NCBI GenBank assembly: GCA_963971425.1
Contig: OZ020520.1
Span: 28,675,535-28,739,534, forward strand
DNA length: 64,000 nucleotides
From: Bryoerythrophyllum caledonicum
Lineage: Eukaryota > Streptophyta > Bryopsida > Pottiales > Pottiaceae
Direction: 5' to 3'
Part shown: positions 18,271-63,572 of the stretch, in pieces
Layout: the number at the start of each line of letters is the position of its first letter
Position numbering within the stretch: position 1 is the first letter of the stretch
The notes under the pieces: generated by a model
Database searches by the model: none
Told to the model about the DNA's origin: nothing
Seen by the model: only the letters and a program-made list of their open reading frames with translations
Translations under genes and position numbers: made by a program

Positions 18271-19972
18271 CTGGACCGTAGGAAGCCACCACCGGCTACT
18301 TCATCAACGTAACACCCTTCAAACATACAGGCCAGCTCATACTCTATTACTACTCCTACTATGTATCTCTCTAACACATGACAGTAGATTACAAATTAAT
18401 GCTTATGCTAAGAACATTGAAAGAACATACATTGCTTGTAGTACTAAAAACCTAGATAACTACTACAACCCTAAAAAACTAGTACTACTTACGTTCGAAC
18501 TAGAGTGGCAAAAGTGGCAGGATCCCCAGAACGGCCTCCGTCAACACCGACAATCGAGGCACACTGCAATATTACACAACATCAACACCTCAAACAGCAA
18601 ACCAGGTAAGACTCATAACTTCAATTGTTACTTATACATACATCAATCTGTGCACACTAAATTATCCCCTCTAAACATATATCACCATAAAAATTACTCA
18701 TCGACGTACACCCTAACAGAAACCATAAATACAGATAAAACGAACTCAAAAAAAAAATGTAACAATGACAAAGAACTAAACCAGAAAAAATTAATAATCC
18801 ATCATTGAAAATCAAAAAACGAATTTGTATTGCATAGGGAGAGAAAACAGGGTGCAGGTACACAAGCAAGTTCATACTCCAGGGACCATGAAATCAACAA
18901 ACAAGCTATAGATGCACAAGACACCTCGTGGAGATCAAGCGAGGACATGACAGATCCTCAGAAGATACCCCTGAAGACAACACAACAAGATGAGCTACAG
19001 ACAAGAAGGCACGAACCTGCATGCAGTCGGCCCAAATCTGCCTCACCAAGCATCTCCTCACCAAAAGCAACCCCAGCTGTAGCAATCACGACTTCCGCAC
19101 AAGGCCACAAGTACCCTACGCCGGCTCCTGAAGATCCAACGACGGAACTAGAAGAACAAGGACCACAGAAGCAAAAGCGGCGCCCTACATCGAGTCGATA
19201 CTCCACATCCTTGGTAGCAACCAGTACAATCATAGAGGCACACAGAGTAGGCGAGAAGAAACACCTGAGTGCACAACGACGAACTCCTGAAGCACAAAAA
19301 AATCGACACCCCACTTCCGGTAAGGATACCAACACAGACGTTGGGGCACGCAGAGCAAGTTCAAAAAAGTACCCGTGCATACCCAGAAGAAGCCCTGAAG
19401 CACAGAGACCCCGACACACGAATACAGGCGAGGAGACCAGTACAACAGAAGAGAAGTACAGAGAAGGCGCGAGGAAGTACTAGTGGGCACTACGCCGAAC
19501 CGCTGTGGAACACCGACACAACTCCTTGTGCCGGGCGCCCCTGCCAGAGACGTGGAGATACCAAGGCCGCACAGAGCGTAGAGCAAGACAAACCAGCCTC
19601 AGGCGCGCAACAAAAAAGCCGAAGGCGCCATCACCAAGAGCGCCCCCGAAGACACCAGCGAGCAGATGCTACAAAGCAGGAGCCACGGACGGAAAGACCA
19701 AGGAGCCAGAGAAGAGCCGTTGTAACGCCGAGCAAGGCGTAAGAGCCAGGCAACAGCTGAACAACTCGCCGAACCTCACGCGAAGCCCTGCCCCAACCTT
19801 GTCCGCCCCCCTAGACAAACTCCCACCCCAACCACCAAGCGAAGTCCCTGCAGCAACTCTCCTCCAAACCAACCAAGTAAGTCCCGTCATAAAGGAACGT
19901 CTTCTTCCCTTTTTCCTTTCAATTTCCCAGTTGTGTATCAAGAAAACTAAAAAAACAAGTAAAATTAACAAC
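18167..19972 (+). other. LINE leader with low-complexity open frames
   Basis: Open frames at 18167-18808, 18830-19483 and 19269-19742 encode basic, Lys/Arg/Thr/Pro/Glu-rich sequence without domain signatures. Two diverged copies of a segment beginning gaagcacaaaaaaatcgaca or similar lie near 19,290 and 19,397, so the frames look like by-products of repeats. The ORF1 frame is open from 19,505, but its first 156 codons are of this low-complexity kind, so I start ORF1 at 19,973. Confidence 0.45.
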
Positions 19973-21586: not shown

Positions 21587-21936
21587 AGATAGGCCGCCAA
21601 ACATGTAGTGGTCAAAGACCTCAAGGTAATGCACAATTACCACCTCGCACTCAACAATTACCATATAGGGCTCTTTACTCTCTACAAATACATACATTAT
21701 ACTAGTACTACATATGTAGTAATCCCTACACACTTTTATACTAGACAAAAAAATTGTATTAGATACTAACAAAGTATGAAATACATTATACGTTTCCTAT
21801 ACACAATACCCAACTACTATACTATCTACCATACATGTACTAAATACTATGTCTTCAATATAGAATACAAATACAATACCAAAATGTATAACAAATACTA
21901 TACCAACCATCATACAAAATACTATAACAACCATTC

Positions 21937-22008
21937 TACCAACTACTATACCAACTACAATACCAACTACAATACCAACTACAATACCAACTACAATACC
22001 AACTACTA
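21937..22008 (+). repeat. 12-bp tandem repeat coding Asn/Tyr/Thr
   Basis: Repeated taccaactacaa units at the start of ORF2 give a NTNY-type peptide (NYNTNYNTNYNTNY). It lies upstream of the 2A-like motif, so it would be on the released N-terminal peptide if the motif works. Confidence 0.8.
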
Positions 22009-22207
22009 TTCCAGATACAATACCATCTACTATACCAAATACAGTACCCGCATACAAAATACAAGCATCCACCTACCCCCAAACAAACAAGACTTTAATA
22101 ACATAACAAAGCCCCAAAAAAATACAAAAAAACAACAAACAACAACAACAACTTCAAAACACAACACTAAACATACATACCACAAAGTCATACTACTTCT
22201 AGGAGGA

Positions 22208-22231
22208 GACATAGAAATTAACCCGGGACCC
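22208..22231 (+). other. 2A-like ribosome-skipping motif (DIEINPGP)
   Basis: Codons 145-152 of ORF2 read DIEINPGP, preceded by VILLLGG, which matches the 2A consensus D(V/I)ExNPGP with its upstream hydrophobic stretch. In known 2A sequences the ribosome fails to join the final Gly and Pro, releasing the upstream peptide. 2A-like motifs are known at the N termini of several non-LTR retrotransposon clades. Activity here is inferred from the motif only. Confidence 0.75.
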
Positions 22232-25200
22232 ATGCCTAATATACTAGAAAGACACCCTACTTCACATAAGAAAAATGCAAAAATTTACTTCACACCTAAT
22301 ACCATAAAGTTACAACCGGAATATGGACACATTGCAAATTCCTTCGCACCTTTCTTAAAAAACACACATGCATTACACCACATACATAACAATACACACC
22401 CAAACATTGCCCAATATATACAACAAAAAAATACACATCCACCACCCCACATTCTATATGCTCTAGTAATCACTACCCATCCACACATAGATGAATGTAA
22501 CCATCTCCTAAATCCACAAAACTTGCACACAATTACATGGATCAACACACTTCTACATAATTTACTAACCTTACAAAACCCACCAGAACGACACATCCAC
22601 ACTCCCCACCCTTATACAAAGTTCTTGGAAGACAACCAAAATATTATAAACCATGAGAACTCAATACATAAAGAACTATATGATTTTTTACATAGCCAAC
22701 CAATACTCAACTCAAATGAAACAATAAAACAAAAATTCCCCTACCTCCCTAACAACCTCATCAATGAATCACTAAAATGTTTAGACCCTATTCCAGAATA
22801 CACCCACCCACCTCCACTACCTCCCTACATACCACCACGAGATCATAACACTAGACGAAATGAAGAAAATACATACATAATCACATGGAATGCCTCCTCA
22901 CTAAACACTGCCCTTCCTAACTTACAAACATTAGTTACGCACACAAACACACCACCGGCCATCATAGTCGTACAAGAAACAAAATTAACCGCCACAAAAT
23001 CTACAAAATACATACAAAATATATTTCAAGACTATAAACTCATCTTCAATAATACACATGCACTCACAAGATGTATACAACAACGTAGACCATATGCACC
23101 GGGCCGAGGTGGCCTCCTTACACTAATACACAAAAAATATGCCTTTCCAAATAATATCAACAAAATTCCTACCCCAATGCAAATATCACCTTACCTTCAA
23201 ATAATCAAAATTACTAATCACCCACTACAATCGTGGTTAATCTTTCACATGTATATGCCATCCCATCCCGAAGATACTAGATTTATCATAGACATACAAA
23301 ACACTATTACATCCCAAATTAATAATAACCCCAATCACACATACATATTATGTGGAGACTTCAACAGAGACATAGCACTAATCGGTCGCCAAAATGGAAA
23401 TCACAACATCCCCCCTCAAAACATTGATTACCAATGGCGCCGCTTCACAGAAAACCTAAACTTCACCTGCATAAAAATTGATACACAATTCTCTAGACAA
23501 GGTGGCTATAATTATAGTGATTGGAGTCTAATAGATGGATTTTAAATAAATACAAACAATAATACACAATACACCTCTACAACAAACAAAGATGTCCTTC
23601 TTAACTTGGACCACTCACCTATACAATTGCATATCCCAAATAACACACTAATTAACAGAATTCCTACAATCCTAAACAACGCCACTATACGCATACTCAA
23701 CTCCATCCCAAAAAACAATATAGAACAATTCAACACAAAATTCTTTGAAGAAAACTCCATACAAATAGATTCCCTCACAAACACTCTTGAAAATAATAGT
23801 CATCTATCACAAATACAATGGCAAGAAACATGCCACACCCTAGACAAACTCATCAATAAAATCTCTAATACATTAGAACAAACTTGTAGAGCCCACCCAA
23901 TACCTCAAACGACAAACATGACTTCTCAACAAGGCGGGTACTTACCCCGCAAACTTTCTAAAACTTGGAAACAACACCTAACTACATACCATACCATACA
24001 AAAAGTCACTAGAATTGCGAAAAATGACCCCCAATGGCATAGTCACCCCATATGCAATGAACTACTAACTCTACAACACGCCCAAATCCCTACCCCGCCA
24101 TTGCCGGATCTTCCCCACGATACATGGATAAAAGACATCGCACTAATTGCAAAAAATGCCAACATACAAGCCCGAAAAGTAACCTCAAAATACGCCAAAG
24201 ACAACATCAAAAAAGCCATCTCAAAATACAGACAATCATACAAAATAAACCCCAAAAAAATAAACAAAAAAATCTTTAAAAATCTTGAAACACCGCCAAT
24301 GGATTGTATCACAGATCAGTATAAAAATATTCTAACTAGCCCCGAAGACATTGCGAATGAAATATTCAACCAACAAACAAAAACCAACAGACCAATAGTA
24401 CCAACATGTAATTACCAACTACAACATACAAACAAATGTACATGTGCAGTATGCCAATACCCATGGCACGACCTCGATGGATATACCCTTGACAAACGAG
24501 GCGAACCAGAAATCCCAATATATAAATACCTTAACAGAGCCACATATGTCTTCAAAATCTTGGTAACAATAAAGCCCCAGGCCCAGATCGCATACCAAAC
24601 TCAATACTCAAAAACATGCCCCCAAGATTTCATAAACTATTATTCCTATTCTTCTCCCACTGCTATGAACAAAAACAAATACTGACCTCATGGAAAACAA
24701 ACGCAACAATTTTACTATACAAAAAAAGGCGAGCCATCCATACTACCCAACCATAGGCCAATTGCACTAGCTAACACAATATATAAATTCTTCACCAGTA
24801 CACTCACCTCTATACTATCCTCATATGGTGAAAAATTCAAAATCTTGCATGATAGTCAAGAAGGGTTTAGAGCAGAAAAAAGTACCGCTCGACAAATCCA
24901 AACTGTAATAGCCGCACTAGAAGACGCAAAATTTACTAACCAAGATATATACATATTATACGTGGACTTCAAAAATGCCTTTGGCTCAATAGATCATGCC
25001 TGACTACTAGCAATAATGATGGACCTTGGCTACCCAAAAGAGGCAACTACACTTGTTGGAAACATCTACTCCCAGTCATCCACTTACTACATCGGTGAAT
25101 ACTTTGGAAAAACAAATCCTATACCCATTCAAAGTGGAACTATACAAGGGGACTCCCTTAGCCCATACCTATTCATTATATTCTTAGAACCACTACTTAG

Positions 25201-28200
25201 ATGGCTAGAACGAGGCAACAATGAATATACTTTTGGCACATCACAAGTCACAATAAACTCCGCCGCATACGCCGATGACCTCGCCACCATAACTAACAAA
25301 ATCAAATCTATCCAAATACAACTCAATAAAATTAATAGATACTGTAAATGGGCCGGTATGGACGTAGGTGTCCCAAAATGTGCCGCTACCGGATGCCCGA
25401 ACAAATCCAAATTGAACCCCACCACTTTCAAAGCCCTAATGCAAGCTTCTAACATCAATTACCGTAATCAACCGATCCCTATACTACACCAAAATCTTGT
25501 TCCCTCACTAAAATGGAAAATCCAAATTCACACTACACCTACAAAACTCATCAAACAATGCAAAGAACTAACAACATGCCCGGCCACCATGAAACAAAAA
25601 ATAAAAATGGTTGATACCGTACTACGTCCAGGTGTGGCATATAGTTTCTACGGTGTACCATACTCTATGCCAGCTATCAAAAAACTTGATAAAAAAATAA
25701 TAGCCATACAAAAAACCATATGTGGACTATCAAAATGTATGTCAAATGCAATAACCCAACTCCCACATAACCTATTTGGGCTTGAAGCTTTCTCCCTCAA
25801 AAATGCATATTTCCGATGTATAGGCGAACAACTACAAAATGCGTCAAACAATAAAGGTAGACTTGGAAAAATATATAATGGATTAACTCACTATGTCCTT
25901 GCCAAATACCGTGGCGCCGAATACATACCCAGAATTTAAAAAAGTGACTGCATAAGATCACCAATAACACGAACATTCTTCTTAATAAAACATATAGCTA
26001 AAGTCCACCTTAAAAGTACGATTCCAAACTTCCTCATTAATCCTACATCGCTAGAAATACTATGGCGCCAAGAAACACTAAACCACAATACACTCAATGC
26101 CCAACTTTCCCAAAAGCTTCTACAAAAACTCCTCTCAAAAAATATTTTCGAACTAAACCAAATTACTTTACCCAATAGCACACACATCATGACCAATGAG
26201 GACTTCAAAACCTACCACTTCACCCCATCCAAACTAATAAAAAGTGCCCTAAACGTTGCTAAACAACTATTTTGCCACCAAACATGCCCCAATACATGTC
26301 ATACTCCTTGTAACATACACCCATACTCTCATACACTTAAAGATTCATTCATCACCCTCAACAATAACATATGCCCAAGAAATATCCCCACACCAATCAA
26401 TCCCCTAACCCTCCACATACATACCATCCCCGTCCCCCAACATACATCCCCAAAAACCCTACCACATACCCCATTAATAACATCATACGCCATAAACACA
26501 TCCAACACACAGACACAAATAACATACAAAATACCTATACAAAATATCTATGCCAATGGCAACACAATAATAATACATACAATAAATGGCTTCCCCAAAG
26601 AGACCTTTTTCCACGACACGACACCAATACTTCCACACATACCACCGAAAAATTAAAACAATACTACCAAAAAATTCAAAACAAAATATACTCAGATATC
26701 ATCCTAGTCCACCACCCCCAAGAACAAGTTTCAAACTCAAGGTCCGTAACACCACCCATAATTATCCCACTCTTAAACATTTACACAACAGAATGCAACC
26801 CCGAAAATGATATCCTTACATCCTCAAATACGATTCAAATAGATAACAGCCAAGCACATCTATACGATGAAAATGGCCGACATTTACACACCATCCCCGT
26901 TACTCGACTCCAATGGTTATGGAATCAATATAATACAAAATTACAAATCCTACAAACATTGAACCAACGATCCAACCCTTCGAAACCGAAATAATATGGC
27001 TATATCAAAGGTATAAATACCGAATACCAAAAACAGACCCCCTAAAAAATGTGCAATACACAATATCCACTCCCATTTTAGATTCATTAATCTCATCCTT
27101 TAACATCGAACAATCATACTTTTCTTCCCCAGTCACATGTTCTACCAAACTAAAAAATTCTACTCACCTTATGAAAGAGACAAAATATTCGGATCCCTAG
27201 GTAAGGTCTTTGACAATAAATGGATCGGTACTGGTATAGCTCACCCCCACAACGAGAAGGACATGGAACAAGCCATACATTGGGCTAGACTTGCCGCCAA
27301 ACACGATCCAAATAACACAAATATAATCATCATCAAACCGAACAACAATTGGTACCAAAACAACAACCAACATTCAAACCCATCTTTAGATTCCCATATC
27401 ATTGCATTATTTGAGGCAGACACAATACCATACGAAGAACCTACTATCCCACCCGAGCTAAAAAACCCCGAACCGAGCCATTTACATTACAAATACTGTG
27501 CGTCCATCATCAAAATCAAACCCTTGGCTCCCTAGAACAACTTGATGAACTTATCTCTATAACAGACAATTTAAACATACACCGACTATACCAAAACTGG
27601 CCCCACCAACACCTATACAAACCCCCGTAAACAGAAGTAAAAATTGGTCAAAACTAAATTATGTCAACAACACACTAAACTACTTAGTCACACCTCCCCC
27701 TCTCTCAAACTATCCAACTCATACCACACTAAAATTTAACCCCGCACACAGTTACTACACCGATGGCTTCTTTAAACCACTAGAACAAATTAGCCCGGGA
27801 TCCTGGCGCAGAGAAAAAGCTGGCTATGGCATATATAATTCTACCAAGGAAATCAAACTAGCCAAAAGACTCCATAGTCTACAAAATATCCTCAGAGCCG
27901 AACTCATGGCCATCCACAAAACCCTACAAATCATCACATCAAAATACAACAATGAATCCGCACATATATTCACCGATTGTATAAATGCACTCTACCTACT
28001 AAACACCCAAATAACACATCCTACTCTTCACAACAGCCACCCCGACCAAACCATATTAATGTCAATGATCCAAATGTTACAAAACTGAACACAAATTACA
28101 ACCCTCCCCAAAGTAAGAGCCCATGCCAACATTGATGGCAACGAACAAGCAGACAAATTAGCAAAAGAAGGCCGAGAAAAAACACACAAAAATGCTAAAG

Positions 28201-29503
28201 ACCCACACGAACATGCCCATGCCACCCCATACTACTTTCAAAAAGAAGATTGGCTTTCCAAGGAAGATACCCCCGACAAAGGCCCGATTAGATTTTTGGG
28301 CAAATATCTCAAAAAACAAGACTTCTACAACAACCTTGATACAATCTCAGCCAACTTCCCTAACATAGAAAAATGGACTAACAACAATGACATAGACAAT
28401 GAACTCTCCACAAATTTTTGGAAAACCCCCATCATCACCGATTCACAAATCACATGCCTTATCAAATCCCGTACCGGTCAGTACATGGGAAACGCCCGTA
28501 AACAAGTCCTCTTTGGAATAGAAAGATTCCCATCCATAACATGCCCCATATGCCCCTCAGCAGACCCCAACACATGGCTTCATGTTCTACTCAAATGCCA
28601 AAACCACCACATTCACTCTCTAATTGTTAGAAGACATAGTAAAGCGGTATGGGAAGTTCGAAAACTAATCACCTCCTACAATAAATCGAGATGTTTTATA
28701 CTAATGAACGCTGGCACTTTTAATAACAATCCACAAGAAAATACGGTCCCCCTTGGCTACTCCCATGCTCATGTATGACCCAAAGATGTCATTGCAACGC
28801 TAGGCTCAAACCGGACATCCTCTGTGTTAAAGGTTTACCATATAATGACCCACCACTAGATAACATCAACCAAGACTACACCATTCAATTCATAGAATTC
28901 ACATATTGCAATGATAGATTTTCCCCGGAAACAATCCAAAATAAAATAGATAAATACCAACCCCTTATTAACGACATCATTGCCCTCGGATGGAATGTGG
29001 CCCCCCTTATTATAATCACATCCGGCGCTCGAGCCACCACTTTTATCCCATCTATGAAAACTCTTGAAGATACTTTCAAAATACCCATTGAAACAATTAA
29101 AATCACCTTTAAAAACATTAACACCATAGCTACTCAACATGCCATGTCCATCTTACTGCACAAACTCAAAATTGAAAACAACCAAGCCCTTCCCGATACG
29201 CAAGACCCCCTTAATTTCTTTCTCCCGCTCTGATTTCTCCTGATTGGTTGGCTTTATGGTGCTTGGCTACTTGATTGGTTGGTTTGTGGTTTTTTGGCTA
29301 CTTGCCTGGTTAGTGGATGGTTGTATGGTTGGGTGTTTGTTTTGCGGGTTTATGGCTACCTGTTACATAGTGTCTACCCCCGAAAGGGAGAAGTGGTTCC
29401 AACTTGCTAATTCCTTGTCCGGTGGGCATGGTCTTAGTAGTGGAGCGAACAGACACTTTATTCACGCCGATCTCCTCGGGAACCGGCGTTCTTCTTCTTC
29501 TAT

Positions 29504-39934: not shown

Positions 39935-42900
39935 GTCAAATGGGGCCCAAAATCATATTGTATGTGAACATAGACAATGCTGAAAGATGAAGCAATTAGT
40001 AAGCAAGCGCAACGAGCAATTCTTCAAATTTAATCTCATAGGTGCCAAATTGATGCAAAAATTTAAAGCTCAAAAACCATTGAGGCCCTTAAGTATGTTG
40101 TAAAATATGTGGTACTTGTCATGGGTTGAGTCAAATATTGTGCCTTTCCTCTTACCTAATGCTAGGAACTACCCAAGAGTAGAAGGTGTGTCATACGTGA
40201 CTCAAAATTGTACTAGCGTATTGAGAACTTCCTAGCAAGGCCACCAATGGCGAGTTCACAGTAGGTGGAGCAACCCAAAACTACGCACCCTAATGATCAA
40301 TTACCACTACTGAACATTTTTAGTTACATTTTTCAAAATCTATGTTGCCTAAACTATTGTATTAGAATTCTTTGACATAGGAAGGTCTACAAGACAATTT
40401 GGAGTGGGGTGTGGTTTTGAAATGCTCCACCATGCTTCCAATATGCACCTCCAACACCACTCCAAATAGCAATCCAACAAATTTTTAAATGGAAGAACTT
40501 CACCTTTAACCCTTTGTGCCCAAGGTACTGTAGCCACAAATTGTTGATCTAATTTAATTGTTTTCTTTGAGTGCTCAGGAAAATGAAATGTCTAATTCTA
40601 GCATCTATCCATACAAAGTTGAAATTAGCTGTGTTATAAACTTTGAAGAAATCCTGCACAACATCTAAAGTTGATGAAATAAATTATAGGGATTAAAGTT
40701 TCCATATATTGTTGGTGGAGGTTGTGATTTTCATATTGTGAGGCGATACCATATCAATAGAATCTTGTAAAAACAATTTACCAAAAATTGGAATTGATTC
40801 AAATGTGCAAATATGTTGATAGCTTCAAATTGGAAAGGAAAGTACAACACTTTTAGTAACCAAAGGAATCCGTGGTATACTAGCAACGTATTAAGCAACG
40901 ATCACTTGTAAGGACTTATGCCTCAATCACTTGGATGTAACAACGGTGGACAATGAATCATATGCCATTGCATAATCCGATTGATGGATCTAAAGTTTGC
41001 GGACGCATCATCGGTGTACCAACCTTAAATGTAAGCTTTTGCGGTGATCACCCGCTGACTTCCAACATAATATTCAAAAACTCGGATGAGATCATATAGG
41101 CACCATATTCATTGTCTACCTTGCCAATGCTTAAAAGAATTTGAGTTGCCCCGGGCATGATGCCAAACACAATAGTGTTGATTTTGCTACGTCTTTGTTG
41201 CATATCGCAACAATAGCGCGACTGCCAAAAATTTTCCTTCCATTGTGGCCGGTTGCAATATTGGAGTAAATTGCGTCGATCAAGCCTTTCATACTCTAAT
41301 GAGGCAATACCATATTGGGTGGACATCAGACATAATCTTCCTCAATAATGTCTAGCTTGCCTTTTCCAAGCACCAAAAGTCAACTAATAAATGTCTGATT
41401 CCCCAAGCCAATAAGCTTTGTAGAGATTGCACCGGCACGCATATTTGAAGGTAAGGCACAGACTTCAACATGGCTCCATAGTTAAGACTCCTTGATTGAT
41501 GTTGTGACGATGTCTAGCCACAAGCCTTTGGAACAACCAGCACGACATGTCTAAAATCACGGCACACCACAAAAGTTACTCCTCTAAAGGGCATATTGCT
41601 TGATTATGTCGTGGAGTGTACATTGGACAACTTCAAAAGCAAGCTTGTCGGCCATTGGTGCCTCGTCCCAAAGAATGAGCTTTGTACCCCGTATCAATTC
41701 CACCAAATTACATTTTCTGCGGATGATGTACATAAAAGTTGGGTCCAATTGAATTGGAATTTTATATCTTGAATGGAAGGTCATGCTTTCCTTTAGCAAG
41801 AGCACCACAATTCTATACGAAGCAAATGCCAACACAATCTGATTCAATGCACGCATGGACTTCATGATAAGATTCTCCAACTACGTCTTTCCGGTACCAT
41901 GTGGTCCATCAACAAAGTGAATCTTGTCTAAGATGGCAAGCGCTCTTGATTGCATGACACTTTGTAAACATTTCGTTGCTTGTTGTTCAACGTTTCAATT
42001 TGCAGTTGAACCTCTCCCCCCGACTTTGCGACATTGTTGAGTCACTCCAAATTAAGTCAATTTGCTTGCAATTCCTCCATGGGAATTGGAGGTTGTAACA
42101 AATTAATATCGTCCAATGACCTCTCAAGTGCTACAAACAATTGAGCGATCATGTTCAATGCAAGACTGTGAATTTTCTTCTTTGATGGTTGCTCCATTAA
42201 TTTATGTTGTAATCAATGCTTACAGTTGTTCGATAAACTTTCACAAAACTGCTTCAAAAGTTGTTACACGTCTAGTGGTGGTCCATGCATCAAGATAGAC
42301 TACTTGACTAAGAAGAAGAACACCGGTCCTCGGTAGGGGGCCCGGCGTGAATAAAGTGTTTGATCATTCCACCCCTAAGACCATGCCCATACTACTTGAC
42401 TACTTGACTAAATCATTGTAATTTCATAGAAATATTACTCCTACTCTTCATTGATTTTATCCAATGAAGAGTCCACGTTCAATGCATGTAACCTTAAAAG
42501 AGTCAAAGACAACGACTTCAAAAGTACACAGTTCCAATAATAATGTTGCGCCTTTTACCACCGTTGATAGTATTCAAAGGAAGTATCTCGCCCGTCAACT
42601 TAGTGAACAAGTGGAAACACCCTATTGTAAATTCATTTCTTTCAAATTTCCAATTTTTTTTGTGACTGCCGTGTGAAGCGGGAGATAAAGCCCACGTAAG
42701 ATGTTTCTATGGCAAATTAAATTGTCCGATGCCTTAAATCATCTTTCTAACACGATATGTTTTAAAATGTTTTATTTGCATCAAACACCATATGTTGATT
42801 GGGTAGATGAACTTGCAAATGCCTGATTGCTAAAGATCCATTGTGTACTAGAAGCCCAAATTGCGACTACATTGGCTCAGATACAGAGACATTGCCCTAT

Positions 42901-43200
42901 CTCTTGAATTTATTGGTGATTTCCAAGATCATAGTTGCGCAATTGTGACCTTTGAATATATATTTAAAAAATGCTTCATAGGGGTGATCAATGAATATAT
43001 TTGTTGGCAAATATGAACAAAAAAATAGTAAATTGACCTTTAAACAACAATGTAAGGGCGATAAAAAAGTCTTGAGGGTACCGCTTGGCACATTTACCGT
43101 CTTCCATGCAAGGGGAGCTTGAAATTCGCTTGTTGTATGGCTCATGCATCGAACACAATGTCACAAGACAAGGCGTCGAGGGCCTCTCCACATCGAAGTG
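39935..43200 (-). pseudogene. Helitron 2, 3' part: Rep C-terminal region and Pif1-like helicase
   Basis: Minus-strand reading in order: SSSPCMEDGKCAKRYPQDF (about 43,100), FFKYIFKGHNCATM (42,960), then the helicase with FKIPIQLDP (41,750), LILWDEAPMADKLAFE (Walker B, 41,650) and SIGKVDNEYGAYMISSEFLN (41,080). This is the order of Helitron RepHel proteins, and the parts before it are found on the same strand at 50,400-51,130. Stops and frameshifts are frequent. The relic shares segments with Helitron 1, including the cytosine-poor stretch gtttaaaggtcaattt. The 3' end is near 39,935-40,250 but no terminal hairpin was fixed. Confidence 0.8.
42310..42393 (-). mobile_element. 5'-truncated LINE 3' end fragment inside Helitron 2
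   Basis: The reverse complement matches the LINE tail: atgggcatggtctta, gtgga, cactttattcacgcc, accggtgttcttcttctt. It is about 84 bases long and shows the family was inserting into the Helitron. Confidence 0.72.
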
Positions 43201-43811
43201 GTTTAGCGTAGATTAGTTTATAACTAATCTATGGGTTTACGGACGTACGGCGGCACACCACATTCATCCATGTATGTTTTATTGGTGTTGAGCGAGTTTG
43301 TCACCCAACAAGTGATTTTCATTGGGAGGACTTGTGTTCTTAAACACCGCGACCGCATTAGCTCGCTATCCGATTAGTTTTAGACTTAGAGAAGGACACC
43401 TTTCGATGTTTATCTTGTGTTGTTGCAGGTTTTGCTACTAGTGACCATCGACTACAGACGTGTGAGTGGCTCTGGTCATTTTCATTTACCGCTTTCATGT
43501 TGTTGGGGGAAAGGATCCGGTTTTGATTTCTCGATTCTTATGCGGTACCTCCCCCGTGTTGCGGACTTGTTGCCGGTGTTTTCCAGTGGCCCATTTCTTG
43601 TTGCACTAGTTTATGTTAGGGTCCGTAGGGGTGAAGTCCGTTTCATAGTTGGCAAGACCTTTTTATGTGGGAGGTTGTGGTTGGACTTGTGCTAGCCGAA
43701 GGTGATGACCGCTGAACCACAAAGTTTGGTGAATTTGTAGGGGCGGATTGCCCGATCGTACCCTTCCCTGTAGATAGTATTTGTAGATGGATTTCTAGCT
43801 GGTTGTTGATT

Positions 43812-44925
43812 ATGGAACGTACACGAGGTCGATATTGCCGCTCTCCCTCATTAGACTACTCTAAGAGTGCTACCACCGCAAACTTTGGGCCAGAGTCGGA
43901 TATAAACGAGGCTTTTGAGGCTATTTTGGCGTTGAATACTAAATGTAGGCTTTGGGTTTGGAGCGTGAACTTGTTTGACGACATGGATGACGATCTCCGT
44001 CATGTCGTGCGAGATAGGTTCTCGAGACGAGATTGGGGCATCTCCTTGCCTGATTGGCGGCTTCCATTCTAGACTCGGATGAAGGAGAAACGCCAACGTC
44101 AGATGCCATCATTTAAGAAGTGGCACGCGTTCATATTATTGCCCCAACATTTGGCGCTAGAGAATTTTCAGACATACAGGAGGTGGAACACGCAGTATGA
44201 GGTACAGTTGCGCCATGTTGAGGAGTACTAGTGCCAGTGTGTGGAGTTGGTGACTGCGCTCAAGGAGAGTGCGGTTGCTTAACTCTCGACTTTCACGAAG
44301 GAGTCCAAGGTGGAAGAGAGTTTCCTTAGTGTGGACTTTAGGGGCCAGGGTGTTGCCATTGTAGGCAAACAGACTGACATGGGGGTCGTGTCCCGTATGG
44401 TCGTAGCTACTCGTGGAGCATTGGTCGCAGTGGCAATCCACCAGCCTTCAGCCCTCTAGAGTAGTTCACGGCGCACTTGAAGGTAGAGTACGAATGCTTC
44501 ATGCGTGATCAGATGGAGCGCATTCAGGATTTCCGCCGGAAAAATGAGGATAGCTCACACAATATGTATACACGGATGACACGATTGTTAGCGGAGGCCG
44601 GTGATGTGTTTACAAAGTGCCAACTCATGAAGATCTTCATCTCAAAGTTGGATAAGCATATGGGGGAGTTGATTAGTTTGCATCTTATTTTTCAGTATCA
44701 TGGAAACGCCACTTTGGCGTAGGCGTTCGCTGAGGTAGAGGCGCTTGATAGAGCGTTAGGCTTGAACGAGGCTACGGATTTGGTCACGGCCTTGTTGGAC
44801 ATTCCTAAGTCCAAGAAGCTTGCCACTGCGATTGGTAGCTTGGCGGACGCACAACCTAAAAAGGTTGTGCATTGTTGGGCTTGTGGGGAGGCGAGTCACA
44901 CTAAGAGGGATCCAAATTGCTCTAA
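43812..44925 (+). pseudogene. Gypsy gag relic with first CCHC knuckle
   Basis: Starts MERTRGRYCRSPSLDYSKS and passes through a capsid-like region with an internal stop. After frame changes come MKVEYECFMRDQMERIQDF and NMYTRMTRLLAEAGDVF, typical of plant retrotransposon gag. The last part has the knuckle CWACGEASH...C. A second knuckle-like CSHCGKFGHS is read at about 45,018-45,050 in another frame. Confidence 0.65.
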
Positions 44926-45507
44926 AAAAAAGGAGGAGGCACGGTCAAGGCAAAGCCCAAGACCAAGGCGTCCAAGACTACACAGAAGGCTAGGGACAAG
45001 GACAGAAGCCTGTGACATGCTCTCATTGTGGCAAATTTGGCCACAGTGATGAGAACTCTTTTGTTTTTTAGTCGGAGAACTGCCCAGGGTCTTTGGCTGC
45101 TGAATTGGATGTTGTGAAGACACTTCAGGCCGAAATGGCGGAGCTGAAGAAGCAAATAAGGGCGATGGCTTCTTTGGGGCAAGTGATCGACACATAGCCT
45201 CCGGTAAGGGGTCAGGGCTCACCTTCAGCCCGAGATCGCTATTTGTATGGCACTTCAAGGAAGTTGGTGGCAGCAGTTGCCACTCGTGCTCACACTACCG
45301 CATAGGTGGTGGCACCTTCTCCCTCTATGCTAGGTGGTGGTGACGGTCCTGGCGACACGGGTTTGACTGACCACATTGGTCAGTCCCGGTCACTTTTTTC
45401 TTTTGAAAATCCGTCACTACCCGTCTCTCTCCAACCCCGATTCCACCGATTTCTTCTAATCTTGGAGATGCCACACACACATTGGCGTCTAAAGTGTTGC
45501 ATTTGTT

Positions 45508-46113
45508 GTGTTTGCCGGTGTGGACTTTCTGACACCGGATTTTCAACCATCTAGAGTATTCCACTGGGCGGGTAGTATGCGGGAGGGCAAGGTGCCCATG
45601 CCATTGTTGGAGGTGTCGCAAACAGTGACGGCTCTATCCACCGAGGAGGATTTGGTGTCAATGCGGGCAAAGTTGGCGACAGAGGCTATTTCCGCATTTG
45701 AGGCCAATGCCATGTCCACATCTAAGGAGCAGTTCTCCGGAGATCAGCCCTTAATCTCTGAAGTGGCTAATTTGTCTGATGTTGCAGATTGGTCGGCACA
45801 AGAGCGACATAGTGTGCGTTTAGAGGTGGTACGTTTGGGGAATGACGATGGACTTGTGGTAGTTGGTCGTACGGACATCAATCCCACTCGTGCTACCCCT
45901 CTTCGTGTTATGTTAGACTACGGAGCTCAGCCAGTGATGATTCGCAAACATCTAGCCCATGATTTGGGTCTAGATGCTTCGGACCTCAAGTCTTGCCTAT
46001 TTACGATTGTTACATTAGTTGGAGGCACGGAGAAGGCCATGGGCTACACCCAACATCCGTTGCAATGGGATCCGGTCCTTTGTTCTCCCGCGTTTCTGTC
46101 CAGTGGACTGTGA
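45508..46113 (+). pseudogene. Gypsy aspartic protease domain
   Basis: A 201-codon open frame with LRVMLDYGAQPVMIRKHLA at about 45,900-45,960. The motif is normally LDSGAQPVMI, so the active-site Ser/Thr next to the catalytic Asp is replaced by Tyr. It lies directly before the methyltransferase domain. Confidence 0.7.
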
Positions 46114-46534
46114 CTAGTGCCACCAATTACGACATTCAAGTGGGTCAGCAAGCGCTTTATCCTCTTGGTTTTGGGATAGATAAGTGGACGGAGGAAGCCT
46201 CGACTATGCCTAGGTGGTCTGCCCGTGATGGCAGAAAGGAGCTTATTGTGGTTGTCTTTACTGCTTGCGGGATGACTTCTATGGTGGATGCTATGTTTGG
46301 GTGTAGTGCCTTGGCATTTAAATTTGCCATGTGGTTCAACGCTTTTGGAGGAGACATATGCTTTTATGTGGGGGGAAGTAGAATCACGTGAGCGCCGATT
46401 AGTGGAGATCCCTGCAAATTTATTGCAAGGATCTACTTCTTCCATGAAGGACTTAGTTGGAGCTCGCTCGTCGCAATCGGGAGATTGTGGACGCTCTTGA
46501 TGCTCTTCAACTTTCAGTGGATACGTCCACGCCA

Positions 46535-47834
46535 TAGTTGGCTCGCACTATTCAGTGGCGACCAACAAATGAGGATATTATTCTCTTGGATCTATTTGTC
46601 GGTATTGGTATGGGGTTTGCGGCTGTATTATAGGTCGGGCTCAAAGTATGGTGGTGCATCCACGTGGATAGTGGCTTTGCAGCCAACCGTGCCGCTCACC
46701 ATCACATTTACCGTCTTCTGTTGTTGTACTCAGATCAGTTACCACCTTCTGCAATTCAAGGGTGTTTTGGCAAGTTGCCACGTGATATGACATTGATCAA
46801 TAAGGATGATATGGGTCGGGTAGGTCATGTGGACTTTTGATTGCCAGATGGCCTTGCCAAGGCCATTTGCGGGCGGCAGTGGACGTGGCTCGAATGATCC
46901 ACAGTCGGGTCTCTTTGCGGATTTACTTAGGGTCATCCAATGGTGGACTACCCACAAATCGACGCCGCCGAGGTACATTTTTTAGAATGTGCCCCCATTC
47001 GGAGATACACGGACAAAGGTGCGTGAGGATGAGACAAACATTCATCACCTTCTTGGTCCCTCCACCTTTGTTGATGTTGTGGCATTGGGCTCTTATGCCC
47101 ATTGGCCATGTTGGATTTAGACCAACATGGCATCATCCGCGATGCTCACCTCTGCACTTGCTCAAGTACAACGGCCCATACATTGTGAGGTCGATGACAT
47201 CTTAGATGACCACCTTGTTTCCACGGAGGTTACCAAGGATGATGAGTCACTATTGGCGGTGGTGAACCGTGTTGCTTTCACTTGGAAGGTAATTTCCACG
47301 TTGATGTGCTACCCGGGGTCTTTTGCTTTCAATACTCGCGATCCGGGCATGGTTTGGGATTCTACTTCTAAAACTTACGAGGAGCTTTCTGCGGATAATA
47401 GGGAACGTGCAATGGGCTTTCTGATAAGCACCACCGCCGTACCGAGTCTGTGTGAGGGCGAGCGTCGTTATTTGTTGGCTCAAACAGATGACGTCGGCAC
47501 CTTGGTTTGGGTTTGTGGCCTTTGTTTTGCCCTTCAACGCGGTTCGCTTAACCATCCGCGCGTGTTGGGGACAGACTCTGATGATCAGGGAACAACGGTG
47601 CGACATCTCACAGAGATTGAGGAAGTGGAGGTAATTTTTTGTTTGAAGAAGCATGTAGCTAAAGAGCTTTGTGCTCAACGTGTCTTTGCAGCTTTGGCCG
47701 AGGACTTTGGTAGAGAGGATGTCCGGGATATCTTTTCCCCGTTTTATCATTACAACACAGGATTTTCTGTAGAAGCCCATTCACATTCACTTGAAAGACG
47801 ACCACTCGAGCTTCCGACGATCGTACAAGCTTAG
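46535..47834 (+). pseudogene. Retrotransposon-borne DNA (cytosine-5) methyltransferase domain
   Basis: Conserved blocks run in the usual order. Motif I is LLDLFVGIGMGFAAV (46,583-46,625), and HVDSGFAANRAAHHH follows as motif II. WPCQGH is motif IV with the catalytic Cys (46,849-46,866). A decayed (E)NVPPFGDTRTKV is motif VI, with TAG in place of Glu (46,983). GSYAHWPCWI.TN is motif VIII, apparently from RPRWIWTN. CYPGSFAF...DPGMVWD and NRERAMGF follow, with a motif X-like TLVWVCGLCFAL at 47,500-47,530. In-frame stops at 46,630, 46,838, 46,983 and 47,119, plus a frame change before the PCQ block, make it inactive. Enzymes of this family transfer a methyl group from S-adenosylmethionine to cytosine in DNA. 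The position between protease and RT shows it was part of the element's own polyprotein. Confidence 0.85.
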
Positions 47835-47869
47835 TCTCATTGCCAAGAGTCATAAGAAGCCAGCTTGAT

Positions 47870-48400
47870 TGAGCTCTCTAATGACGAGTACGCTTGTGCC
47901 ACAGTTATGCCATTAAAGAAGGATACCTTCGGCAACTAGACGAAGAAGTGGATGTGTGGAGATTATAGGCCGGTTAACCATAAGACCAAGTCAGACCGGT
48001 ATTCCATGCCCACGCCGAAGGAGTTATTTGAGGTTGTGGGCCACCCTAGAGTATTTAGTACTCTAGATTTACGGCCGGCTACCACCACTTACCATTGATG
48101 GTGGATGACCGGATGAAGACTATATTTTCGGGAGTTGATCAAGATGGAAGAGATCAACTCTATCATTGGAAGTTTCTCCCATTTGGCCTTAAGAACGCAC
48201 CCCTGAGGTTTAGATAGTGATAGACGGGGTGTTGACCGATTTACCGATTGTCAAATGCTACATCAATGATGTTATCATTTTTAGTAGCAGCCCACATGAG
48301 CATGTGAGGCATCTTCAGGCGGTGTTCGAGCGGTTATGACAGTGGAGATTGCACTTGCACCATGGCAAGTGCAAGTTCTTGCACAATCGGATGTTGGCTT
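47870..48400 (+). pseudogene. Gypsy reverse transcriptase relic
   Basis: The frame reads ATVMPLKKDTFGN, CGDYRPVNHKTKSDRYSMPTP, VFSTLDL, then after a frameshift GYHHLPLMVDD, FSGVDQDG, KFLPFGLKNAP, VLTDLPIVKCYINDVIIFS and LHHGKCKF. These are standard Ty3/gypsy RT blocks. The catalytic Y-x-D-D is YIND (tac atc aat gat at 48,258-48,269), a loss of the first Asp. Stops occur within. Confidence 0.82.
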
Positions 48401-48750
48401 GTTTTGGAGTTCCAGCTGAGGTTTTAACGGATTAGAGGCGTGAATTCCTTGGGGATTTTGAAGCTTTGTAAACCAAGGCTTTGATTGACGATTGTACCAC
48501 TTAGTGGGATCACCCGAAAGTGGACGGTTTGGCAGAGCGTGTGGTTCATACCGTAAAGCGGGCCCTACGAAAGTATGAATTACTTCATGGTGGCCATTGT
48601 GATTGGGATCTAATGATACCATGGATTGCCGTGAGATATCGGTTTAGCCAACAGGCTTCACTGGCTGTTTTCTGCCCATATCAGTTGTTGTACGGGCGGG
48701 AGCAAATTTTACCGAGTTCTGCTTGTGGTTTTAGGCTCTGGTTGTAGATA
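48400..48750 (+). pseudogene. Gypsy integrase relic (C-terminal part of catalytic core)
   Basis: Starts abruptly at FGVPAEVLTD (about 48,405), continues REFLGDFEALCTKALID, DGLAERVVHTVKRALRKYELLHG, WIAVRYRFSQQAS, YQLLYGREQILPS. The zinc-binding N-terminus, first catalytic Asp region and all of RNase H are absent, so an internal deletion joins RT directly to integrase. Confidence 0.78.
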
Positions 48751-48973
48751 TGAACAATTCAGAGGTGTGGGCCTAGTGTCTACCGGATTGAGCGGAGTTT
48801 TTCAAGTAGGCTATGTCTATGGCCATGGAGAACTTATCCATCGCTCAACACCCTAACACCTCACAATACGCTCGTATTCGTAGCGGTGCCTACCAACCTC
48901 AGCTACGATGTTTTCCCACCGAGGATTATGTTTATCTGTAGCCTGAGGCATCCACGACGTTGGATGTCAAGGC

Positions 48974-49372
48974 ATGGCACACCATTCTTGCGTGAAGGAT
49001 GTGTTGTCGAGTGGCATCTTGTTGCTGGAAGGCAAGGATGGCGAGGAGTGTTGGGAGTACTCTAAGAATTGTGCTCCCTACCATTTACCCATTGATGGCT
49101 TCGTTCATCCGGAATTGGCGGTTGTGCTAGACGGTCTTCCGGATTTTGTGTGTGGTGAGAAGAAGGGCGTGGCTACCATGTTGCTTTGTGACCACTGCCA
49201 CCGTGGTCGGCATATGGCTTGCTTGACGGCGCCTCTTTCTACTCTATTGTCCGAGGATTGGACTTGCCCTCATTGTTGGAGGTCTTCGAGCCACGTTTTA
49301 CACGATGTTCAACTTAAATTCCTTGTAGACTTGTCAGTGTGTGGTGCGTTGCCTAAGGCAATTAACCCCTAA
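48974..49372 (+). pseudogene. C-terminal PHD-like zinc finger of the gypsy polyprotein
   Basis: A 132-codon open frame reads SSGILLLEGKDGEECW, NCAPYHLPIDGFVHPEL, then VCGEKKGVATMLLCDHCHRG, RHMACLTAPL, LLSEDWTCPHC. This fits the C4HC3 PHD pattern from the second Cys on (C...LLCDxC..G.H..CL..PL...W.CP.C); the first Cys of the initial CxxC pair is not seen. PHD fingers read histone tails. It occupies the place where many gypsy elements carry a chromodomain, which suggests a targeting role by analogy only. Confidence 0.7.
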
Positions 49373-50171
49373 AGGACCAATGTCCCCTCGGGGGACATTT
49401 TGAGTTTGGGTAAGGTACCACGTTCTCAATTCTAGGCATTATTTTCTGAGATTTTTATTGAATAGACAACTTTTGATTAGCTTTGTGTAGACACAAATTT
49501 CGTAGAATTCCAACTTACGATTCAAAAGTTATAATTTATTTTCCCTTCCATATACAAATAGGCAGCAGTTTAGTGTGACATATCACAAATACTGTCACCA
49601 AACTTTAATAACTTCTAAATTCAATAGAAATTCGAGTTTTTGTCCATTTAAAAGAAAGAAAACTTCCTTTTGGAAAGGAAATTGAGATCTTTGCATCTAT
49701 TGTACGGATTTGTGAATTTCAAATATTTGAGAAGGATATGATATATGCAAAATATAATGTGTATTGTTGATTCTTGGCACATAGTTGCATTGCAAGATTT
49801 TTTAGGACATCTTCTACACCTCTTCTACTTCTAAAATTTGGCGCACATGTACCTAACATGGTCCTTTTCAAGTTAACATAATAAATTCACGGCTCGTAGT
49901 GCAAAAAGTTGCCATAGAAGGTGGTCGAAGTTTGTTGAAGGTGTATAGTATGACTTGAAAAAGAGATTATGGCACACTTCAAAAGCTAATATCTTTCAAT
50001 CCGTGCGGTCAAACTTACCAAAAATTTTACCACACACTCTCATACAAGTCTAGTACAAGATCCTATGGTATAATTTTCAAAAAAATGATTTTATATCATT
50101 TTGTATTGAATGTGCTGAAAATGGCAGTTTTGGAGTGTTTTTGAGGAAAAATTGCCTTGGTCCTTTAGGGG
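49366..50171. mobile_element. Best-preserved TTAA-flanked element (806 bp)
   Basis: TTAA at 49362-49365 and 50172-50175 flank a 15-bp perfect terminal inverted repeat, CCCCTAAAGGACCAA. A short hairpin TGTCCCCTCGGGGGACA lies just inside the left end. There is no coding capacity. The ends and TTAA duplication are the hallmarks of piggyBac-type transposition. Confidence 0.85.
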
Positions 50172-50379
50172 TTAAAAGATGGAGCTCACATTGCACTCGG
50201 CCTACTCTCTCTTTGTTACTTCTTCATATGTTTTTTTATTTGGCGACGAGCGACATTTTTGACTAGATGCGTACAATTGTTGTAGCGACATCAGCGTGGC
50301 ATTTAGTCTTGTTAGTGTTGTTTGGTCCTACTACGTATATTTGTTTTAGTGTATGTTTTTTGTTTATTTGATGTTGGTT

Positions 50380-51130
50380 AGGACCCTCGATATGTTGTGG
50401 TTATTGATCTTTCTTTACACAACAACAATGTGATTATCCCGTACGCATCAAATTCAGTGGCCACATTCAAAAGTTTGGTAGTCATTGTTGTTCATTTGTC
50501 GTTTACGGACCTCAATTTTGACTTCCCGTTGAGAATCATTCGAATGTGCATGTATAAAAGGCCTCTCTTTTTAAATTCAACCACCAAATTATATCCCATT
50601 ACCATATCAAACACTTTGCGGTCTTTGAAATCTACCATCAGTTCCTCAAATTTTAAGTTGAATACACATGCAGCTAAATGAAGTTTGTCTTGTATTGTTT
50701 TCCGGGTTCCAATTTTGTTGTAATCTCATGCCATTTTGGATCATACGTGAACATTACAAAAAGGTCTAAATGTCCAATCACCTGCACAATAGTCATGGTG
50801 TTCTTATAGTGTTGATTCATTGAACGTCTGCCTTTCAAAATGGACAACGACATGATGAGCATTTGACAAATTTGTGCTAGATCATAGTCGTTAGCATTCA
50901 AGTTATCCACCACTTGACTATAAAGTTCATTTTGGAGGTCCTAATTGTTATTAATAAACTTTAAGCACTTTTGTTTAACGCAAATCCATGCATCCACCAT
51001 GTATTGTTGCGAGAAACGACTAGGATAGAAAATGGCAAACACGCGCGTGAAGCATGTATGCATAAAACAAGTCATTTGGGTTAATCCCCTTGATCTGGCC
51101 CTCCCCCTAACACCATTTGAATCCACTTGG
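50380..51130 (-). pseudogene. Helitron 2, 5' part: Rep N-terminal region
   Basis: Minus-strand reading gives FSQQYMVDAWICVKQ (about 51,010), GRRSMNQHYKNTMTIVQ and LDLFVMFTYDPKWHEI (50,750-50,830). Next come LAACVFNLKFEELMVDFKD and VVEFKKRGLLYMHIRMIL (50,520-50,680). The last covers the HUH site, where the first His is replaced by Tyr (GLPHxH to GLLYMH). The rest of the protein continues at 43,200 and below after the gypsy element and the TTAA element. Confidence 0.82.
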
Positions 51131-52189: not shown

Positions 52190-53510
52190 TGTAATCACGT
52201 ACAACAATAATTCAATTTTTTTTGCTTATGTACGTTTCCAAACTACACTGCTGCCAACTTTGGCGCCCTCATGAGGGCTGAAAAATTGTCAATTTACAAT
52301 GAAATTTTTGGCACAAGATCATTTCTATGTTAAGAAGATTTGTGCCAAATTTCAAGTCCGGAAAATGAATACAAAAAAAGATATTCAAAATCTACCAAGA
52401 TATGTAGTTGTGAGTCATTCACAACTACCAACTTTGACATCCTCCCTAGGGTTGATTATTTTTTAATTTACCGTGAAATTTTTGGCACAATATCACCTCT
52501 ATGTTTATAATAAGTATGCCAAATTCCAAGGCCACATGAAGAATACAAAAAATGATATTCAAAATTGTTTCTCATAGCTACATACTTTGGTAGATTTTGA
52601 AGATGGTTTTTTGTATTCATCTTCTGGCCTTGAATTTTTGCACACATGTTATCAACATGAAGATGATCTTGTGCCAATAATTTCATGGTCAATTAACAAT
52701 TTTTTTGACCTAGGGAGGGTGCCAAAGCCAGCAATAGTGAAATGGATTTCACAACTACACATGTTGGTAGATTTAGATTTGTTTCTTTTCTGCTGTGGAT
52801 CTTTTGGACTTGAAATCAAACACACATATAATCAACATAAAGGTGGTCATATGACCAAAATATCATGGGGAAATATAAAAAATTGAATCCTTTGGACGGT
52901 ATCAAAGTTGGCAGCAATGAAATGTTTTTCACAACTATACATATTGGTAGATGTCAAAAATCTTTTGATATGTAGATATTTTGGCCTTTATATTTGGCAC
53001 GCATGTGATCAATATAGAGGCAGTCTCATGTCAAAAATTTCATGGGAAAAAACAAAAAATCAATCCTTGGGAGTGTATCAAAGTTGGCTAGAAGTGAAAT
53101 GTTTCTCACAACTACACATGTTGCTAGATTTTGAATTAGTTTTACTTGTGTGGATATCATGGACTTGAAATTTTTCTAATACATCAACATAGAACTAGTC
53201 TCATGCTAAAAATTCCATGGGCAAAAAAAATTCTTTCAATCCTTAAGAGGGTGTCAAAGTTGGAGGCTGTGAAACTTTTCTTACAACTATCCTATGTTGG
53301 TAAATCTTGGATATCTTTTTTTGTGTAAATCTCTTGACCTTGAAATTTGGCGCACATGTTTTCGACATAGAATTGATCTTGTGCCAAAACTTTCATGGTT
53401 AATTGACAATTTTTCAGCCCTTAGGAGGGCGCCAAAGTTGGTAGTAGTGTAGAGGAAACGTACATAAGCAAAAAATTTGAATTATTATTGTCACCGATTG
53501 TACGTCACAA
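52190..53510. mobile_element. Foldback-type element: inverted arrays of a roughly 178-bp unit
   Basis: The outer ends are inverted copies: left gcttatgtacgtttcc and ccaactttggcgccctc (52,228-52,270), right gagggcgccaaagttgg and ggaaacgtacataagc (53,425-53,472). Inside, the left arm has about two units (52,250 to about 52,570). The right arm has about five units in the opposite direction, each with a caaagttgg-type block (52,718; 52,895; 53,070; 53,250; 53,425). The arms meet near 52,570-52,600. Long terminal inverted repeats built from tandem subrepeats are the defining trait of foldback elements. Confidence 0.75.
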
Positions 53511-63410: not shown

Positions 63411-63572
63411 ATTTCCAAAACAGGAAATATGTCAACAGCAGGGTTCGAACCTGCGAAGGACATCGCCCAGCGGAACTGATGTCCGCCGCCATAAACCACT
63501 CGGCCATGCTGACATCAGCTGGGTTGACCTTTAGCAATTGTTTGCCCAATATCTACCCTGAAACCTAAACCC
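63281..63572. repeat. Inverted repeat flanking the tRNA-like gene
   Basis: aggtttcagggtagggtaga at 63281-63300 (continuing tattg) is mirrored by caatatctaccctgaaacct at 63548-63567. The right arm lacks one 5-base subunit. The arms lie about 130 bases left and 33 bases right of the tRNA-like sequence. Confidence 0.75.
63431..63513 (-). tRNA. Class II tRNA-like gene (Ser/Leu type), predicted anticodon UCA
   Basis: On the minus strand, 83 bases fold as a tRNA. The acceptor stem is GTCAGCA/TGTTGAC with one G-T pair. The D arm is GCC...GGC with AGTGGTTTAT, and the anticodon stem is GCGGA/TCCGC. The loop is CATCAGT, the variable arm is about 15 bases, and the T arm GCAGG/CCTGC has TTCGAAC. The long variable arm means class II (Ser or Leu). 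Loop position 33 is A instead of the nearly universal T, and positions 34-36 read TCA, complementary to the stop codon UGA. The following base is A, as in Leu tRNAs, and TTTT lies 11-14 bases downstream. Box A and box B are well kept. A pseudogene is the likelier reading because of the loop. Confidence 0.75.

Follow-up and report, generated by a model that had tools for sequence, protein, structure and literature searches.

The window (the whole analysed stretch, 64,000 nucleotides of contig OZ020520.1 from the moss Bryoerythrophyllum caledonicum) contains a Gypsy-type retroelement that carries a C5 DNA methyltransferase (DNMT). The best explanation, to which we assign a probability of about 0.8, is that this element is a dead member of a large moss Gypsy-type family, which also has young, preserved copies and encodes a methylating enzyme. 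The first-pass annotation had proposed a Gypsy-type element with its own C5 methyltransferase between the protease and the reverse transcriptase (RT). The methyltransferase motifs that it quoted are present in the DNA at that place (translations in three frames), and better-preserved members of the family keep the same order. Alignment with a better-preserved copy elsewhere in this genome showed that the element occupies positions 43159-50424 and is larger than had been described (Table 1).

Table 1. Parts of the element in the window (asterisk, stop codon)
Feature	Position	Strand	Basis
Remnant of 5' repeat A1	43159..43280	+	79% identity to A of copy c2
gag region, broken over frames	43791..45505	+	tblastn, ORF1 residues 1-576 of copy L017, 49-77% identity
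Aspartic protease region	45508..46419	+	tblastn, ORF1 residues 578-885
C5 DNA methyltransferase (DNMT3-like), three frames	46481..47774	+	tblastn, 71-73% identity to L017 DNMT, E 4.5e-178
Methyltransferase motif I, LLDLFVGIGMG	46583..46615	+	frame 2; relatives VELFAGIGTG
Methyltransferase motif IV with catalytic Cys, WPCQGH	46849..46866	+	frame 1; relatives GWPCQGHS
Methyltransferase motif VI, IF*NVPPFGDTR	46977..46997	+	frame 3, from 46977; relatives IFENVPP
Methyltransferase motif VIII, FVDVVALGSYAHWPCWI*TN	47067..47126	+	
Methyltransferase motif IX/X-like block, ELSADNRERAMGFL..LLAQTDDVGTLVWVCGLCFALQ	47382..47537	+	
Reverse transcriptase remnant	47773..48393	+	tblastn, ORF2 residues 64-279; ORF1 end with stop site deleted upstream
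Integrase remnant	48385..48989	+	tblastn, ORF2 residues 737-938; about 1.4 kb deleted before
PHD finger	49148..49276	+	Pfam PF00628, E 1.6e-09
Insertion with inverted ends TTAACCCCTAAAGGACCAA / TTGGTCCTTTAGGGGTTAA, foreign to the element	49364..50175	.	read by eye
3' untranslated part and B1 repeat	50167..50424	+	73% to c2 over 307 columns

The body of the window copy is 80.7-82.3% identical to the better-preserved copy. Relative to an intact relative, the window copy has three deletions and one insertion. The first deletion (about 1 kb) took the leader and most of repeat A1. The second, of about 240 bases, took the ORF1 end together with the stop site (6690-6932 of c2; blastn), and the third, of about 1.4 kb, extends from the end of RT through RNase H into the integrase. 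The insertion (about 0.8 kb) interrupts the 3' part of the dead element and has TTAA at either end, which we take to be reminiscent of piggyBac-type non-autonomous elements. Positions 50329-50424 are 93% identical to repeat B2. In the gag region, a zinc-knuckle-like CWACGEASHTKRDPNC was read by eye; its Pfam support is weak (E 0.048, in copy L021). The protease of the window copy matched Pfam Asp_protease_2 with E 9.6e-05 and 23.5 bits, slightly below the cutoff of 24.3. The methyltransferase is spread over three frames in all, with two frame changes and several stops, and in motif VI a stop stands in place of the Glu codon of the relatives. Because of these frame changes and stops, the window copy is dead and unable to make the enzyme.

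Several other features were observed in the window. A LINE-like element with broken frames lies at 19484-29233 (Exo_endo_phos, E 4.1e-06; RVT_1, E 2e-12; RNase_H, E 0.00032, below cutoff). A PIF1-like helicase fragment, perhaps from a Helitron, lies on the minus strand at 41587-41880 (E 8.1e-21). Repeats of about 150-170 bases, related to one another and placed in direct and inverted orientation, cluster at 52243-53456. ARAGORN called a tRNA-Sec at 63429-63514 on the minus strand; this call is probably spurious, as the Rfam gathering search had no match in the window. LEAFY has one place in the genome. Its last exon is identical at 101 of 106 positions (by eye) to PDB 4bhk, LEAFY homolog 1 (240.7 bits); the next PDB entries scored 172.4 bits and then 168.9 bits (PROTEIN LEAFY, 2vy1). 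The 4bhk protein is from Physcomitrium and 2vy1 is from Arabidopsis, and D and C at two LEAFY sites mark the moss type. The LEAFY of this genome is thus of the moss type and identifies the host as a moss.

When isolated pieces of the window methyltransferase were searched, no Pfam methylase matched, and two such pieces had no match in PDB. Because these piecewise searches were negative, relatives were needed to show the methyltransferase. Among 6415 candidates, a read-through query of the broken window protein matched 12 relatives at E <= 10; the best E was 2.4e-191, and identities were 39-71%. PF00145 is annotated in nine of the 12, and the seven that were rescanned scored 43-49 bits, where the Pfam cutoff is 22. 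We also compared relatives with the window stretch by tblastn without joining frames. The best blocks scored 201 bits for P0010, 141 for Marchantia, 116 for Klebsormidium nitens and 94.7 for Closterium; Marchantia and P0010 gave three collinear blocks in three frames, and K. nitens and Closterium gave one block each. The top score over 200 shuffles was 25 bits. Thus, the methyltransferase in the window is real and well above chance.

A profile of the relatives was then compared with PDB. The catalytic domains of DNMT3A, DNMT3B and DNMT3C were the top solved matches (52.1 bits, E 3.5e-13), followed by HaeIII (33.7 bits), HhaI (26.6 bits) and DRM2 (15.2 bits). Neither DNMT1 nor a chromomethylase was named in any of the 52 PDB matches of this profile. 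DRM enzymes have a rearranged motif order. In contrast, the motifs of the element enzyme follow the non-rearranged order I-IV-VI-VIII-IX/X. An AlphaFold2 (AF2) model had a mean pLDDT of 46.9, with core blocks up to 84. In a fold search with this weak model, DNMT3 occupied all of the best 50 of 104 matches (E <= 0.001), at TM-scores of about 0.3 by query length. Because the model is poor beyond the core, the fold search is supporting evidence only. By profile and fold searches, the element enzyme is nearest to DNMT3. It differs from DNMT3 in having PCQ at motif IV, where the aligned DNMT3 chains have PCN, and in a longer spacer between motifs I and IV. In P0029, P0032, P0034, P0038, P0039, P0040 and P0041, motif IV is ECQ or ECK instead of PCQ, which to our knowledge is unusual for a C5 methyltransferase.

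The broken, pseudogene-like frames of the window copy could be taken to mean that a fragment of a host methyltransferase gene was inserted by chance into an ordinary Gypsy copy. In the 437-Mb assembly, the element has at least 101 copies (scored matches of 2425 candidates), all 75-88% identical to query P0003, and for nine of these 101 the match is a stop-free open frame of 1353 residues. Searching with RT yielded 5790 candidates, of which 88 were scored. Of the 88, 72 have a methyltransferase match on the same strand upstream, in 66 of them at a distance of 296-305 bases. When 1.7 kb upstream of the other 16 was searched by tblastn, the methyltransferase was found in 14 (in L030, the last 48 residues only) and was not found in L035 and L040. 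Thus, the refuting case named in the first-pass annotation, intact family members that lack the domain, was not borne out: the methyltransferase lies upstream of RT in 86 of the 88 scored RT copies and is therefore a standing part of the element. The same block precedes RT in proteins from Marchantia, K. nitens and Closterium. These two results refute the chance insertion of a host fragment, to which we give next to no credence. A second subfamily (subfamily B) was located at 33 places, which are 54-71% identical to P0011; the 65 listed matches to which they belong also include the first subfamily. The element is abundant in this moss genome.

The anatomy of the family was read from eight fetched copies (c1-c8). 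Of the eight, four have an open ORF1 (1353 codons) and four have an open ORF2 (1047 codons); in two copies both are open. ORF1 encodes gag, protease and methyltransferase, and ORF2, after an in-frame UAG, encodes RT, RNase H, integrase and a PHD finger. Pfam detected DNA_methylase in ORF1 and RVT_1, RT_RNaseH, H2C2, rve and PHD in ORF2; RVT_1, RT_RNaseH, H2C2 and rve were above cutoff and in order. The phage-integrase family was absent from the Pfam scans of L017 ORF1 and L011 ORF2. The protease had no Pfam match in L017 and scored below cutoff in L021 (E 0.001). It is above cutoff in the relatives P0010 and P0011, and the protease of the moss copies is assigned by homology.

ORF1 and ORF2 share one frame. 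In seven of the eight fetched copies, a single TAG with CAATCA directly after it stands between them; the eighth has an insert at this site. With a pattern that left the stop and the hexamer free, the site was found in 17 of 26 distinct copies examined, and all 17 have TAG followed by CARYYA. These 17 correspond to 23 rows (six copies were counted twice), of which 22 have CAATCA and one has CAACCA. One subfamily B copy, whose ORF1 is 41% identical, reads TAG CAACTA at that site. In the protein database, ORF1 of relatives ends in similar words (ALSATK, APSTD and ASSSN), and in P0029, P0032 and P0039 ORF1 continues into RT as one protein. PMC3441728 describes CARYYA as important for the readthrough of stops and a leaky GAG-POL stop as very rare. 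The conserved leaky stop probably reflects that the enzyme is wanted in Gag amounts. Most ribosomes would stop at the UAG, so that the methyltransferase would be made and packed at the Gag level, and a few would read through to give RT and integrase.

Homology among independent copies begins at repeat A1 and ends at repeat B2. The 5' end carries A1 (362 bases), and the 3' end carries B1 (107 bases), the dinucleotide GC, A2 (361 bases) and B2 (107 bases). Thus, two simple long terminal repeats are not present; a split arrangement, A1 ... B1-GC-A2-B2, is found instead. The B1-GC-A2 junction is present in all eight fetched copies, and the GC spacer resembles the junction in a circle formed by end joining. 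In the seven copies with both A1 and A2, the two are 98.6-99.7% identical, and therefore the insertions of the preserved copies are young. The element ends are TGTC...GACA (TG...CA). An exact 4-base target duplication was read by eye in six of the seven copies with both ends (ATTT, GGTT, ATGC, TCTA, AAGC and TGTT); it is absent from c4, and c3 has lost its 5' end. The 4-base duplications and TG...CA ends, taken with the split repeats, indicate that an integrase-type insertion is combined with DIRS-type repeats. Split direct repeats of the type A1 ... B1-A2-B2 have been described for DIRS/Ngaro elements (PMC6681497); those elements use a tyrosine recombinase, whereas the moss element has an rve integrase. 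With Ty3/Gypsy elements, the moss element shares the protease before RT-RNase H-integrase order, rve after RT, the TG...CA ends and the short target duplication. It differs from them in its split repeats.

Next, we calculated dN/dS for the methyltransferase. Eight between-subfamily comparisons (c6 or c7 versus c1, c4, c5 and c8) gave 0.159-0.233, and seven other, within-subfamily pairs, which have few changes, gave 0.216-0.597. The comparison value for the KnitGypsy-Dnmt3 group is a Ka/Ks under 0.2. The between-subfamily values, which fall on both sides of this limit, speak for purifying selection on the methyltransferase. In the same eight comparisons, the synonymous distance is 0.37-0.50 for gag and protease and 0.10-0.14 for the methyltransferase, a difference of roughly three- to fourfold. 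This jump suggests exchange (recombination) between the subfamilies.

Catalysis and purpose of the enzyme are inferred. We see about even chances that it methylates newly made DNA of the element by the time of integration or earlier, the element thus entering chromatin already marked, and that the PHD finger would read histone tails and steer the integrase. Points against our overall explanation are the lack of CpG depletion, the negative yeast result for the K. nitens relative (see below), the within-subfamily dN/dS values, PCQ at motif IV with ECQ in some relatives, the weak AF2 model, the absent or below-cutoff Pfam protease in L017 and L021, the one of seven copies that has no target duplication and the two of 88 RT copies that have no methyltransferase. 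The CpG values of preserved copies are 0.785 and 0.787, compared with 0.676 for the rest of the window. Because the preserved copies are not CpG-depleted, a footprint of self-methylation is absent. This absence, together with the PCQ/ECQ variation at motif IV, would agree with a domain kept for nucleic-acid binding or RNA methylation instead of DNA methylation; in de Mendoza 2018 (PMC5890265), RNA methylation was raised for the LINE type. However, motifs I, IV, VI, VIII and IX/X are all retained in the relatives and dN/dS between subfamilies is low, and we regard this explanation as improbable.

Decay of the window copy was counted at sites where five preserved copies agree; this agreement may differ from the ancestral state. 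In the methyltransferase, C-to-T or G-to-A changes were found at 32 of 158 CG, 25 of 104 CHG and 46 of 414 CHH sites. In gag and protease, the corresponding counts were 68/297, 54/276 and 120/885. Transitions at A/T sites were 36/568 and 71/1106, respectively. The CG and CHG decay fits host methylation of a silenced copy: the host would methylate old copies at CG and CHG sites and so silence them, and they would decay as the window copy has. The same decay in a dead copy could be read as self-restraint, in which the element silences itself and limits harm to its host, an idea that is raised in PMC5890265. Since CHG decay points to host enzymes and preserved copies are numerous, self-restraint seems quite doubtful. 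A further explanation has the enzyme working in trans: its targets would be rival elements or the host genome, not the element's own DNA, and the effect would be a change in host silencing. Gag-level expression via the leaky stop would yield much enzyme, and the copy number is high. However, there is no sign here of release from the particle, and K. nitens, which has kin elements, possesses an ordinary plant-type methylome (PMC5890265). Action in trans is unlikely.

Retroelements that carry a C5 methyltransferase are already known from a green alga and from dinoflagellates (de Mendoza 2018, PMC5890265), and DNMT3 in retrotransposons of streptophytes and dinoflagellates is mentioned, citing de Mendoza, in a 2025 paper (PMC12344493). 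By sequence comparison, the closest known system is KnitGypsy-Dnmt3 of K. nitens (PMC5890265). In common with the moss element, it has a DNMT3-class enzyme in a Gypsy element and a DIRS-like repeat layout with Gypsy domains. The K. nitens protein KFL_009030040 (P0149), which may be one of the published copies, has the order protease-DNMT-RT-RNase H-integrase, as in the moss element, and is identical to the moss protease and methyltransferase at 195 of 584 positions (33%, E 8e-69). This alignment ties the moss family to the alga. Judged by homology, domain order and repeat layout, the moss family is kin of KnitGypsy-Dnmt3.

There are also differences. The moss methyltransferase is in the Gag-side ORF before the UAG, whereas P0149 has no stop between methyltransferase and RT, and the methyltransferase of KnitGypsy-Dnmt3 is inside the Pol ORF. 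The moss ORF2 ends in a PHD finger, whereas P0149, which is partial, shows none; another K. nitens protein, P0140, has RT-integrase-PHD. The moss genome has at least 101 copies, whereas K. nitens is described as having fewer copies than Symbiodinium (PMC5890265). A K. nitens relative gave no methylation in yeast, a result that its authors called inconclusive (PMC5890265). SymbioDIRS-Dnmt3 and SymbioLINE-Dnmt of Symbiodinium also are retroelements with a C5 methyltransferase, and SymbioDIRS-Dnmt3 has A-coding-B-A-B repeats like the moss element; however, they use a tyrosine recombinase or a LINE endonuclease in place of an rve integrase (PMC5890265). Within the literature searched, which left most subscription journals outside its coverage, there were no reports of methyltransferase-carrying retroelements in mosses or liverworts, and no paper other than de Mendoza 2018 used the name KnitGypsy. 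Relative to the literature that we could find, three features appear to be new: a land-plant host, a leaky stop that would give the enzyme a Gag-side position, and the PHD finger.

A search with the ORF1 methyltransferase region gave 32 proteins, including six from Marchantia polymorpha and one from Closterium sp. NIES-53. Eight M. polymorpha proteins (P0028, P0030, P0031, P0035-P0037, P0060 and P0061) have CCHC/protease-DNMT as in the moss, and in P0030, P0037, P0060 and P0061 RT follows. Identity to the moss methyltransferase is 41-49% (six proteins); the source annotates them as hypothetical proteins and not as a methyltransferase element. The RT search gave 3018 matches. Among the 120 listed were proteins from Marchantia, Calypogeia, Closterium, Chara and K. 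nitens. Others came from Haematococcus, two flowering plants and a pseudoscorpion (Cordylochernes), in which the RT is more distant or is not linked to a methyltransferase. The methyltransferase was in the same protein in 30 of 125 RT proteins compared; because proteins with only ORF2 cannot carry it, this number is no measure of its absence. No relatives were found among viral contigs in two scans.

In 33 tabulated proteins, the methyltransferase is before RT in 24 (including P0149, in which the integrase range is ambiguous) and after RT in eight, and P0042 has no RT part. The eight (P0041, P0120, P0122, P0124, P0147, P0148, P0156 and P0157) have it before the integrase where this is seen. 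Therefore, the methyltransferase shifted its position at least once or was gained twice. P0161 (source name beginning jgi/Tetstr1, probably Tetraselmis) has a weaker methyltransferase match (65.8 bits) before RT. In the RT tree, which was read without support values, the moss copy groups with liverwort proteins. Deep supports in the methyltransferase tree are weak (several of 34-56), and both one ancient capture and horizontal spread are compatible with these trees.

Tentatively, and with less than even confidence, we propose a single capture of a DNMT3, early in the evolution of the green lineage, by Gypsy elements with split repeats, and its retention in Klebsormidium, Closterium, liverworts, mosses and perhaps Tetraselmis; the moss element would then have become a reader-writer with a leaky-stop, Gag-level enzyme and a histone-reading PHD finger. 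The first-pass annotation had suggested that the find extends the range of this arrangement. It does extend to land plants, given the moss host and the Marchantia proteins with the methyltransferase before RT (vascular plants were outside the comparison), but as kin of the algal element it is not evidently a separate capture. If the P0161 match is sound, the group would extend outside the streptophytes. If the single early capture is true, a parasite would have been using the silencing mark of its host since before land plants. With young, preserved and dead copies together in one moss genome, and with kin in Marchantia, it becomes testable why a retroelement carries the class of enzyme by which its host silences.
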